IMG/VR virus record: IMGVR_UViG_3300007734_000912
Location: 1-32,235 of that record
Length of the DNA stretch: 32,235 bases
From: a virus
Direction: 5' to 3' (one strand)
The notes beneath the pieces were generated by a model. It did not search any database. It saw only the letters and a list, made by a program, of their open reading frames with translations, and had not been told where the DNA came from. Below are positions 23,083 through 30,121 of the stretch, piece by piece (position 1 is the stretch's first letter; every line of letters starts with the position of its first letter). The translations under genes were made by a program, and so were the position numbers.

Positions 23083-23994
23083 ATGGCAACTAAAGGAAGA
23101 AAACCAATACCAAAAACACAAAGAGAAATTAGTATTTCTCAACAAACTCCCTTTAATGAAGAGACAGGAAATCCCAACTTTACAAATGAAATAAATAGAG
23201 GTAAACAAATTTCTTTTAAAGGAGACACTGTTAAACCTTTCTCTATAGGCATTCAAGACATAGATGAGTCTATATTTTACTACTTTCAAAAAGTAATTAA
23301 ACCTTTTGTAATACAAAACGGAGAAAGATTAGAAGTGCCTATTATATATGGTTCACCTGAAAAGTGGAAATCATTTCAAAAAGATGGATATTATAGAGAC
23401 TTAAACGGGAGAATTATGATGCCTCTTATTATGATTAAAAGAGATGACATTACTAAAATAAGAACTATAGCAAACAAGTTAGACGCTAACAATCCAAACA
23501 ACATTTCAATTCATAGAAAAAAATACAGCAGTAAAAACGCTTATGATAATTTTAATGTGTTAAACAATGTTATTCCTCAAAAAGTAAATTATGCGGTAAT
23601 AGTTCCTGATTATATAACTGTAACTTACAGCTGTGCTGTTAACACTTATTATATGGATCAATTAAATAAAATTGTAGAATCAATTGAATATGCGTCTGAT
23701 TCATATTGGGGTGATCCTTCAAAGTTTCAGTTTAGAGCGATGATTGATTCGTTTGCTATTAAAGCAGAAATATCAGAAAAAGAAGAAAGAACAGTAAGTA
23801 GTACTTTTAACATAAAATTAAATGGATACATAATTCCAGATGTGCCGCAAAAAGATTTAACAGCATTAAAGAAAATATCAGACGTAATCAAAATTACAGT
23901 AACAGAACAAATAATGGGAGATGGTGGAGCAGGACGTGTTTATCCTGCAACATATGGATCTTTCAATGATTCATTTGATAACTCATTTGGTTAA
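23083..23994 (+). CDS. Tail completion/sheath stabiliser protein (T4 gp15-like)
   Basis: A 303-residue protein following the gp13-like and gp14-like genes, as gp15 does in T4. Motifs are IGIQDIDESIFYYFQKVIKP, RLEVPIIYGSPEKWKS, MPLIMIKRDDI, VIVPDYITVTYSC and FNIKLNGYIIPD. Together they fit the tail-completion family whose ring caps the tail tube and sheath and joins them to the neck. The basic N-terminal arm (ATKGRKPIPKTQREI) is probably disordered. Family placement is moderately sure; order in the operon supports it. Confidence 0.65.
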   Translation: MATKGRKPIPKTQREISISQQTPFNEETGNPNFTNEINRGKQISFKGDTVKPFSIGIQDIDESIFYYFQKVIKPFVIQNGERLEVPIIYGSPEKWKSFQKDGYYRDLNGRIMMPLIMIKRDDITKIRTIANKLDANNPNNISIHRKKYSSKNAYDNFNVLNNVIPQKVNYAVIVPDYITVTYSCAVNTYYMDQLNKIVESIEYASDSYWGDPSKFQFRAMIDSFAIKAEISEKEERTVSSTFNIKLNGYIIPDVPQKDLTALKKISDVIKITVTEQIMGDGGAGRVYPATYGSFNDSFDNSFG

Positions 23995-24003
23995 TATTTA
24001 TAC
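23993..24003 (+). promoter_or_regulatory. Late-type promoter motif, short variant
   Basis: AATATTTATAC, overlapping the preceding stop codon. It is followed 24 bases later by the ATG at 24027. The downstream AATAAA part of the consensus is missing. Confidence 0.5.
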
Positions 24004-24026: not shown

Positions 24027-25151
24027 ATGGCACAAACAAAAGATCAACTTACAGCACTTTTAAACAGTAACATTACTGATGCTTTAAACAAGCAAAATAC
24101 TGCGTCAAGAGTAAGACAGGTTATTCAAAGTAACATTGACAGTTTAGGAATGCTGTCAGGTTCAAATACATTTGTTGGTGATCAAACTATATCAGGAAGT
24201 GTTATATTACCTAATGTTTTACTATCAAATTATGCAAGTAACAATTTAGCTCTTGAAGCAGGGATACCTGTTGGAGCATTATACAGAAACGGAAATACAA
24301 TACAAATGGCAACACCTGCATCACATCCTTCTCAATCTGCTTACACTACGACTGTAAGAGGAATTTATTCAAGTGCATCTTTAGTAGAAACTTGGGGCAC
24401 ATATACTGTAAATTACATTAAACAAAAAAGCGGATTTGATCCTTATCAAGTTTTATATGCTGTAGGAATATGTTCTGATGACGTAGATGCTTTCACAGTT
24501 AATGGTAATTTAGGACAGTTTCCTGTAGCAATGAATTCATTTTTAGGACCATTTATGGCAGGAGGATTAGCAGGATATCCATTTGTAGGAAGTATAGGAT
24601 TTGGAGCATTTGCAAGTCATATTACAGACACTGGTTCATTACTTATATCTTGTACTCCACACATTGGAGTTACAGAAGATGGAGAAGCAGGATATCAATA
24701 TCGTAAAGGACAAGAAGCTAACTTAATAAATCTCACACCTAGTACAAACTGTGGAGCAGTTCACGGAGCAGTAGGATTAGTTACAACTGACCCAAATACT
24801 CCAGATATAACAAATGCTCCATACAATAATGAAAATTATGAATTGTGGAAACTAGCAGACATAATTTATCCACATTCTGCCTCATTTAGTGGTTCAGTTA
24901 GTGAAAATATAATAGCGGCTACTTCAATAATAAGAGATGCTGGATGGCAATATGTTTACAACAACTCATCATCATTTTACAGTGCCTTAACAGGTAGAAC
25001 AATGTATGCTATAGGAGGAACTTTCATTAACACAGATTATGGTTTTGAAGGATACATTGAAATAAACCAATTTCAAGCGTACAACTCATCAACAAACTCT
25101 TGGACAGATTACACACAAGATTATAAAGATGGTTTATTTGCTCAAGGATAA
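24027..25151 (+). CDS. Phage structural protein fused to an LCIB/LCIC-type beta carbonic anhydrase-like domain
   Basis: A 374-residue protein. Residues 1-92 are phage-like: a helix, then SGSNTFVGDQTISGSVILPN as in the fibre shaft at 19399, then GIPVGALYRNGNTIQM, a common fibre/virion segment. From about residue 105 the sequence changes. GICSDDVDAF (Cys149, Asp151), LGPFMAGGLAGYPFVG with SIGFGAFASHI (173-199), CTPHIGVTEDGE (His212), YRKGQE (Arg226) and NCGAVHGAVG (Cys242) match in order the pattern I know from LCIB/LCIC proteins, the limiting-CO2-inducible beta carbonic anhydrase family of algae and bacteria. The Cys/His/Cys zinc ligands and an Asp/Arg pair all appear present. It may hydrate CO2, or may use the fold for binding. 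It lies between tail-completion and sheath genes, so it could be a virion protein. Confidence 0.72.
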   Translation: MAQTKDQLTALLNSNITDALNKQNTASRVRQVIQSNIDSLGMLSGSNTFVGDQTISGSVILPNVLLSNYASNNLALEAGIPVGALYRNGNTIQMATPASHPSQSAYTTTVRGIYSSASLVETWGTYTVNYIKQKSGFDPYQVLYAVGICSDDVDAFTVNGNLGQFPVAMNSFLGPFMAGGLAGYPFVGSIGFGAFASHITDTGSLLISCTPHIGVTEDGEAGYQYRKGQEANLINLTPSTNCGAVHGAVGLVTTDPNTPDITNAPYNNENYELWKLADIIYPHSASFSGSVSENIIAATSIIRDAGWQYVYNNSSSFYSALTGRTMYAIGGTFINTDYGFEGYIEINQFQAYNSSTNSWTDYTQDYKDGLFAQG

Positions 25152-25173: not shown

Positions 25174-25422
25174 ATGACCACAAAAGTTTTAACACAAGAA
25201 GAAATTACACAACTAAAAACAATTCAAGAAAAACGTTCTCAAATAACAGAACATTTTGGAACAATTGAATTAAGAATTCAAGAATTAAATTTACAAAAAG
25301 AATATTTAATAGGTGAATTAAAGAAGTTGCGCCAAGAAGAAATTACAGTAGGAGAAATCCTACAGAAAAAATACGGCGACGGTTCAATCAACCTTGAAAA
25401 AGGGGAATTTGTAAGTACTTAA
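25174..25422 (+). CDS. Small coiled-coil protein
   Basis: An 82-residue protein that is mostly one long helix with heptad-like spacing (LTQEEITQLKTIQEKRSQI, then LRIQELNLQKEYLIGELKKL) and a short tail. Small coiled-coil proteins of this kind are common among tail genes of T4-like phages, but none has a role I can assign here. It has no promoter motif of its own and starts 22 bases after the LCIB-like gene, so it is probably expressed with it. Confidence 0.6.
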   Translation: MTTKVLTQEEITQLKTIQEKRSQITEHFGTIELRIQELNLQKEYLIGELKKLRQEEITVGEILQKKYGDGSINLEKGEFVST

Positions 25423-27820: not shown

Positions 27821-27850
27821 AATGTCCGATATTTATTATCGGACATTTTT
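27821..27850 (+). terminator. Rho-independent terminator after the tail tube gene, with promoter-like loop
   Basis: ATGTCCGATA (27822-27831) pairs perfectly with TATCGGACAT (27837-27846) around a 5-base loop, followed by Ts to 27850. The top of the hairpin reads ATATTTATTA, close to the late-type promoter core, and the endonuclease ATG is at 27861. Confidence 0.88.
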
Positions 27851-27860
27851 ATCTAATATT

Positions 27861-28619
27861 ATGAAAAACGCGGAAAAATTAATTCAAGAAAAGTACAACG
27901 GAATACATCCAATATGTGGATGTGGTTGTAAAGAAAAAACAGTTTATGATCATGGAACAAAAGATTTTGGAAAATTTAAACGAGGTCATCAAACCAGAGT
28001 GAATAAAAATTATTTTGGAGATCCTAAAAATCCAAAAAGAGTAGAAAAAATTAAAGCAACACGTAAAGCTAAATTTACATCAGGTGAATATGATCACGTG
28101 TTAAATGCTATAAGAGAAAATAGAAAAAATCCTGAGTTAGGTAAAAATATATCTAAAGGCGCTAAAGGTATTCCTAAACCAAAGCCAAAAGGATTTGGCA
28201 TAGGAAGAAAACACTCAGAAAAAACTAAAGATAAAATGAGTGATTCTGCTATGAATAGAATATTAAAAACACAACAAAAACATACTTCTAAATTAGAAAA
28301 AGAATTTGCTTTAATATTAGATGATTTAAATGTTAAATACATACAATGGTATTATGCTAAGCCTATAAAAGCCTTTTATGATTTTTACATACCCTTGAAA
28401 AATACTATAATAGAAGTAGACGGAGATTTTTATCATTGCAATCCAGATACTAAATATGCTTTACCTGAATGTAAAACTCAAAATATAAATATAATTAATG
28501 ATAAAAAGAAAAACCAATGGGCTAAAGACAACGGTTTTAAATTACTTAGATTTTGGGAAACTAACATTAACACTAACCCACAACAAATAATAGAAACACT
28601 TAAAAAAGAACTCACTTAA
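27861..28619 (+). CDS. Homing endonuclease, Vsr-like (EDxHD/PD-D/ExK) with NUMOD3
   Basis: The start is set at ATG 27861 because the in-frame ATG at 27822 lies inside the terminator stem. That gives 252 residues. The N-terminus has CGCGCKEKTVYDHG ... FKRGHQTR, a probable zinc-binding element. A NUMOD3-type segment (GRKHSEKTKDKMSD) follows. The C-terminal part (HTSKLEKEFALILDDLN, then FYDFYIPLKNTIIEVDGDFYH, then KKKNQWAKDNGFKLLRFWETNI) is a Vsr-like nuclease fold, as in EDxHD homing endonucleases such as I-Bth0305I. It is a free-standing mobile gene between tail tube and gp26-like genes. Its own stop lies in the loop of a terminator. Confidence 0.82.
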   Translation: MKNAEKLIQEKYNGIHPICGCGCKEKTVYDHGTKDFGKFKRGHQTRVNKNYFGDPKNPKRVEKIKATRKAKFTSGEYDHVLNAIRENRKNPELGKNISKGAKGIPKPKPKGFGIGRKHSEKTKDKMSDSAMNRILKTQQKHTSKLEKEFALILDDLNVKYIQWYYAKPIKAFYDFYIPLKNTIIEVDGDFYHCNPDTKYALPECKTQNINIINDKKKNQWAKDNGFKLLRFWETNINTNPQQIIETLKKELT

Positions 28620-29494: not shown

Positions 29495-30121
29495 ATGATA
29501 AATACTACAAAAAATATTCCTATCATAGGAATATATAAGATCACTTCACCTACAAAAAAAATTTATATAGGGCAATCATCTAACATATATTTAAGATGGA
29601 ATAAATACATGAGAGAGGACTGTGCTGACCAACCTAGGATACTTAGATCTCTTAAAAAATATGGTCCTCAAAATCATATCTTTGAAATAATTGAAGAATG
29701 TTCTTTAGAACAACTAAACGAAAGAGAAATACATTGGGGTATATTTTATAAAGTATTAGAAGAAAAAGGTTTAAATTGTAGATTAGGAAACGGAAGTGGG
29801 GCATGTAGTGAAGAAACTAAACTTAAAATGAGTAAATCTAGATTAGGACAAAAACGTACTCAAAATACTAAAAATAAAATGAGTAAGTCTCATTTAGGTA
29901 AACAGTATAAGTTAGGGTACAAATTAACTCAAGAAATAAAAGATAAAATAAGTTCAAAATCTACACGCATATTATGTATAGAAACTAATAAAATATTTAA
30001 AAACATCAAATATGTTTCTGAGGAGATGAATATAAGCCATACTTTCATTTGGAGGGTTTGTAAGGGAATACGTAAAAATGCTAAAGGATATACTTTTAAA
30101 TTTATTAATAAAGAAGTATGA
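29495..30121 (+). CDS. GIY-YIG homing endonuclease with NUMOD3 repeats
   Basis: A 208-residue free-standing homing endonuclease. The GIY-YIG catalytic domain is at the N-terminus: GIYKITS at residues about 12-18 and KIYIGQSSNIYLRW after it, with ERE-x-HW further on as the expected Glu region. Three NUMOD3-like helices follow (SEETKLKMSKSRLGQ, TKNKMSKSHLGK, TQEIKDKISSKS). The C-terminus (CIETNKIFKNIKYVSEEMNIS through AKGYTFKFI) is an IENR1-like DNA-binding repeat. It is comparable to the T4 Seg proteins. The stop TGA overlaps the next start (ATGA). It lies between two tail-assembly genes and is probably mobile. Confidence 0.93.
   Translation: MINTTKNIPIIGIYKITSPTKKIYIGQSSNIYLRWNKYMREDCADQPRILRSLKKYGPQNHIFEIIEECSLEQLNEREIHWGIFYKVLEEKGLNCRLGNGSGACSEETKLKMSKSRLGQKRTQNTKNKMSKSHLGKQYKLGYKLTQEIKDKISSKSTRILCIETNKIFKNIKYVSEEMNISHTFIWRVCKGIRKNAKGYTFKFINKEV

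Follow-up and report, generated by a model that had tools for sequence, protein, structure and literature searches.

Known phage tail enzymes, such as depolymerases and tail lysozymes, degrade surface polymers, and an enzyme acting on CO2 or bicarbonate is, to our knowledge, not among the cargoes of tail fibres. We likewise know of no step in phage infection that is based on a carbonic anhydrase (CA). The D8 protein of vaccinia virus is an alpha-type CA that, as far as we know, does not have a complete zinc site. D8 is a virion surface protein with a CA fold, which acts as a chondroitin sulfate adhesin (PMC4256255). The algal LCIB group comprises soluble or plastid enzymes. Its diatom member PtLCIB4 (Phaeodactylum tricornutum, PDB 5b5y) was described as constitutively active in a review (PMC9614477). 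The recombinant LCIB and LCIC proteins of Chlamydomonas showed no CA activity, though the fold and the zinc motif were kept, and disordered His162 and Arg194 were offered as a reason for the inactivity of LCIB (PMC5876011). Hence, Chlamydomonas LCIB and poxvirus D8 are examples of a CA fold that can persist without shown activity. No paper on a virion-borne or an LCIB-type phage CA was found in the literature.

The DNA analysed here (the window) was the 32,235-nucleotide stretch of the IMG/VR record IMGVR_UViG_3300007734_000912, a 32-kb virus contig whose + strand bears a cluster of T4-like head and tail genes. The head genes coded for the terminase large subunit, the portal, the head maturation protease and the major head protein, and the tail-side genes for a head-tail adaptor-type protein, the sheath, the tube and a baseplate-hub-like protein. 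No Rfam matches or tRNAs were found in the window. A dehydrogenase-type match (phrog_12409, E = 2e-23) was recorded near the contig start, at 245-1492. The gene under study and its domain were located as follows.

24027-25151, + strand: gene for a 374-aa protein with a fibre module and an LCIB-type beta-CA domain (open reading frame, PF18599 match and IMG/VR relatives)
24408-25079, + strand: LCIB_C_CA domain, residues 128-351 by the Pfam bounds; the modelled domain was residues 95-374

The assignment to the LCIB family, proposed in an earlier note on this DNA, had been tied beforehand to a profile match, and such a match was obtained: the window protein scored 98 bits against PF18599 (LCIB_C_CA; E = 6.4e-28), the curated cut-off being 25. 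It was the sole Pfam family matched at E ≤ 1, so that the classical beta-CA (Pro_CA) profile gave no match to the window protein at this threshold. Eight other phage relatives scored 85-116 bits against PF18599. By sequence only, the PDB entries of PtLCIB4 (5b5y, E = 2.9e-14) and 6kfs (E = 1.5e-13) were matched, and a profile of the phage relatives matched PtLCIB4 at 1e-23, as well as LCIC and LCIB.

The final AlphaFold2 model was computed for the domain alone (residues 95-374) from an alignment of 79 sequences and reached a pLDDT of 81 and a pTM of 0.84. Its least certain part extended from Cys149 to about residue 193, with block means of 47-62 except one of 75. An earlier full-length run with 21 sequences had given a poor active-site region (pLDDT below 50 at residues 148-190). 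The claimed resemblance to LCIB/LCIC structures was borne out by superposition: the model aligned with PtLCIB4 (5b5y_B) over 237 residues at Z 23.4 and an rmsd of 2.7, with 6kfs likewise at Z 23.4, with LCIB at Z 18.4 and with LCIC at Z 17.9. Canonical beta-CAs, such as E. coli YadF and H. influenzae HICA, shared the core fold (Z ~10) but only ~9-18% identity with the window domain. The domain model was also matched by Foldseek at E = 1.2e-13, and no BFVD structure matched it at E ≤ 0.001. The open reading frame at 24027-25151 thus carries a true LCIB/LCIC-type beta-CA domain. A chance occurrence of the active-site residues was ruled out by the profile match and the fold.

Further, the active-site residues were compared with those of PtLCIB4. 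All residues cited in the earlier note were found in their places, namely Cys149-Ser150-Asp151-Asp152, LGPFMAGGLAGYPFVG, His212 in TPHIG, Arg226 in YRKGQ and Cys242 in NCGA; one further residue, His198 in ASHITDTG, had been overlooked.

24471-24473, + strand: codon of Cys149, putative zinc ligand, aligned with PtLCIB4
24477-24479, + strand: codon of Asp151, putative catalytic Asp of the Asp/Arg pair
24618-24620, + strand: codon of His198, aligned with His88 of PtLCIB4
24660-24662, + strand: codon of His212, putative zinc ligand
24702-24704, + strand: codon of Arg226, partner of Asp151
24750-24752, + strand: codon of Cys242, putative zinc ligand

By alignment, the putative Cys/His/Cys zinc ligands and the Asp/Arg pair occupied positions matching those of PtLCIB4. 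The meeting of Cys149, His212 and Cys242 in one site, on which the earlier note had also made its reading depend, was addressed indirectly, through this alignment and the superposition of the model. The phage domain resembled PtLCIB4 and the LCIB/LCIC/theta-CA group in the fold, the Cys/His/Cys motif and the Asp/Arg pair; the His88/His198 position was conserved as well, and Ser was also the phage residue at the site of the S47R mutation in PDB 5b60. It differed in its low identity to PtLCIB4 (~23-25% in structural alignments), in a phage-specific insert (GNLGQFPVAMNSF-like) between CxDD and GGLAG, and in being fused to or inserted in fibre-type proteins.

The conservation of these residues was counted in 96 full-length non-identical phage sequences with identities down to ~33%. 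Cys149, Asp151, Asp152, His198, His212, Arg226 and Cys242 were kept in 96/96; the invariance of Cys149 and Asp151 was partly selected for, because the domain was placed by the C-x-D-[DE]-[VI] motif, and the other invariant residues were not used for selection. Position 150 was occupied by Ser in 90 sequences and by Ala in six. No full-length counter-example was found among the phage sequences, those without the motif being fragments, one CSDDL variant and domain-free backbone proteins. The dN/dS ratio between the window and L001 was 0.13, indicating purifying selection, and that of the close pair L006/L002 was 0.50. His198 and Arg226 of the window protein, matched by spacing, are probably the counterparts of His162 and Arg194 of Chlamydomonas LCIB. 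Since Chlamydomonas LCIB and LCIC were inactive as recombinant proteins, intact residues are no proof of catalysis. The CA activity of the LCIB domain is nevertheless predicted, with moderate confidence, from its residues, and the balance of probability favours a domain that binds zinc and is catalytic.

The gene lay in a variable island of the tail cluster, between two conserved genes.

23083-23994, + strand: left-hand border gene of the variable island, conserved, 303 aa (relatives confirmed in 222 IMG/VR stretches; island analysis)
25174-25422, + strand: right-hand border gene of the variable island, conserved, 82 aa
25474-27210, + strand: tail sheath gene (PF04984; phrog_23, E = 2.2e-71)

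The gene had been placed between a gp15-like gene and the sheath gene. The sheath gene was indeed found downstream, with the 82-aa gene intervening; the gp15-like identity of the upstream gene at 23083-23994 was confirmed by no profile. The closest relative of the window sheath was that of Flavobacterium phage immuto (54% identity), so the host of the window virus is likely a member of Bacteroidota. A homologue of the 82-aa gene adjoined the sheath gene of phage immuto, and this gene was found in nearly all islands, occupied or empty. Two homing-endonuclease-like genes, at 27822-28619 and 29495-30121, broke up the tail gene cluster of the window.

The islands were counted in contigs that contained both borders, loci repeating a contig being removed. 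The LCIB gene was present in 7 contigs, the 82-aa gene only in 28 and other genes in 26. Many genes of these last 26 islands had fibre or adhesin features. In one locus (L005, 3130-4428), a 432-aa protein with YadA-head SHAEG repeats shared the island with the LCIB gene.

The N-terminal part of the window protein was composed of two elements.

24027-24209, + strand: N-terminal fibre module, residues 1-61, found also on proteins with bodies unrelated to LCIB
24252-24311, + strand: tip-like motif (AGIPVGALYRNGNTIQMA-type), approximately residues 76-95, preceding the LCIB domain (from the sequence)

Residues 1-61 shared 81-87% identity with the N-terminal ends of 306/307-aa neighbour proteins in L002-L006; the value for the N-terminal end of the 227-aa protein of L179 was 63%. 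The fibre-like character of the N-terminus, noted earlier, agreed with this sharing of the module by proteins with other bodies. By eye, the AGIPVGALYRNGNTIQMA-type motif resembled GGVPLGGVYHTNGALKIRLV, the C-terminal end of other fibre proteins in the island. The LCIB gene of L002-L006 was separate and adjoined the 306/307-aa fibre-module protein; in the window and L001 the two were fused.

The domain was also observed on other anchors. A protein of ~500 aa was uninterrupted in 77 of 80 cases, and in the other 3/80 it was interrupted, in frame and near residue 117, by the LCIB domain.

L034, 7842-10172: LCIB insertion in the ~500-aa protein
L035, 7839-10169: LCIB insertion in the ~500-aa protein
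L233, 12-1745: LCIB insertion in the ~500-aa protein

In other lineages, the alternative anchors were a GIRITS-type beta module and an NLTLR/STLK module, which were also carried by neighbouring proteins free of LCIB. The backbone of L253 and the neighbour of L010 had no isolate homologue. It was concluded that the LCIB domain is a swappable part, modular across anchors. As in an appendage of the virion, the anchor module was common to other appendage-like proteins, and the location in the virion or fibre, which had been suggested with reservation, gained much support from the sharing of the module, from the variable content of the island and from the insertion in frame. From this modularity and the gene context, the protein is likely located in the virion. 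Its location may differ between lineages, because the gene of L002-L007 was separate and one lineage had the LCIB gene after the portal and head genes.

We proposed that the gene product would be a small virion appendage protein. The N-terminal fibre module would anchor it to the tail or baseplate and would end in a fibre-tip motif, to which an LCIB-type beta-CA domain, predicted to fold like diatom PtLCIB4, would be added. Zinc would be held by Cys149, His212 and Cys242, and the Asp151/Arg226 pair with His198 would interconvert CO2 and bicarbonate. Once displayed, the enzyme would have the host surface as its place of action; it could, for example, hydrate CO2 released by the respiring cell, and the local pH and bicarbonate might shift during attachment, which is a guess. 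The best reading is a zinc enzyme, displayed on the virion, that converts CO2 and bicarbonate into each other at the surface of the host, and we regard this reading as slightly better than an even bet. The virion location and the activity have about an even chance of holding together, and a benefit of the CA domain to infection is speculative.

The strongest alternative was that the CA fold serves as a receptor- or glycan-binding fibre tip, the zinc site being used for stability or ligand binding. Fibre tips are modular, the swappable island site also held adhesin-like genes, including those with YadA-head repeats, and poxvirus D8 provides a precedent (PMC4256255). D8 and the phage protein both bring a CA fold to a virus protein, D8 being of another CA class and from an animal virus. 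An adhesin would, however, be expected to lose the catalytic set somewhere, and the entire set, beyond the zinc ligands, was invariant at low identity. Chemistry is therefore favoured over mere binding, and a binding domain is considered unlikely, although it is the foremost of the rival readings.

The timing of expression was considered from a short element in front of the gene.

23995-24002, + strand: TATTTATA, late-promoter-like element upstream of the LCIB gene
5714, 7003, 11923, 18306, 18993, 21383, 23055, 23995, 25444, 28647 and 29464, + strand: sites of TATTTATA

The element occurred 14 times on the + strand of the window and was found upstream of 11 of the 33 listed genes, compared with 0.7 by shuffling. 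It stood, often as AATATTTATAATAAA, 21-39 bases ahead of many late genes, and the genes so preceded included those for LCIB, the sheath and the 303-aa protein. The late-type promoter motif reported earlier was thus real, but its orientation was reversed: on the coding strand it read TATTTATA, with the T4 late promoter, TATAAATA, as its reverse complement, and TATAAATA itself was absent from the listed upstream windows. Because TATTTATA lay upstream of the LCIB, sheath and 303-aa genes, this common motif supports a late co-expression of the LCIB gene with the structural genes.

A late enzyme outside the virion, the product of an auxiliary metabolic gene supplying an intracellular CA for bicarbonate or pH buffering during virion building, was also considered. 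The stand-alone 308-aa LCIB form, separate from the fibre-module gene in L002-L007, and the glycosyltransferase and other non-structural genes near the LCIB gene in the L010-L066 lineage were consistent with such an enzyme. However, a soluble enzyme needs neither fusions to fibres or anchors nor a position inside the reading frame of a large, conserved protein, and the window gene was fibre-fused and placed within the tail cluster, not standing alone outside a structural module. This explanation was judged improbable.

The spread of the family was followed in several collections. One protein query retrieved 7 IMG/VR contigs, and alignment queries retrieved 32 and then 90 (80 kept). The widest search for relatives of the LCIB domain gave 143 confirmed IMG/VR stretches, and the domain was present in at least 118 distinct IMG/VR contigs, counted by contig name. 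Three diverse queries matched none of 50,697 isolate-phage records. The window protein matched no PHROG family, and eight diverse relatives gave nothing better than E = 0.07. No cellular relative was found in 84,980 prokaryote genomes by two scans with peptide patterns too narrow to establish absence, and none was found among the PLSDB plasmids. Frequent in viral metagenomes but without a match among the isolate-phage records, the family is easily overlooked.

Compared with three PDB sequences of the family, the phage sequences formed one diverse clade, which a long branch set apart from the algal enzymes. A single recent pickup of a host gene was set aside, the phage clade being diverse; the outgroup of three sequences was too thin for the origin or date. 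The least probable explanation, a beta-CA-fold zinc hydrolase acting on another small substrate, would accord with the long branch and with the carbonyl sulfide hydrolases of clade D beta-CAs, described as beta-CA-related in one paper (PMC8209446), but is very doubtful given that the Asp/Arg pair and His198 were identical to those of PtLCIB4, the enzyme described as constitutively active (PMC9614477).

The preferred reading, that of a displayed CO2/bicarbonate enzyme, resembles phage depolymerases and tail lysozymes in having a catalytic domain on a modular fibre and a variable gene island. The LCIB domain and enzymes on fibres were already known. Judged by the collections and papers that were searched, the combination of LCIB with a fibre, the spread over several lineages and the exchange of anchors are new, and the LCIB group now extends beyond algae. 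The broader proposal that several uncultured lineages display an active CA, swapped among fibre and baseplate anchors, and that CO2 hydration at the surface aids attachment or genome delivery, is tentative and on balance unlikely. If true, such a gas- and pH-handling virion enzyme would add a novel type of cargo to those known, and one would have to ask whether the chemistry of the cell surface is sensed or shaped by phages.

Some variants of the family were also observed. The LCIB protein of L009 (7983-9182) had ~110 extra C-terminal residues, and its flanking genes were not tail-like. Tandem LCIB-domain genes were found in L027, L068, L070, L075 and L078, where the N-termini of the two proteins were different and the active-site residues were intact in both.
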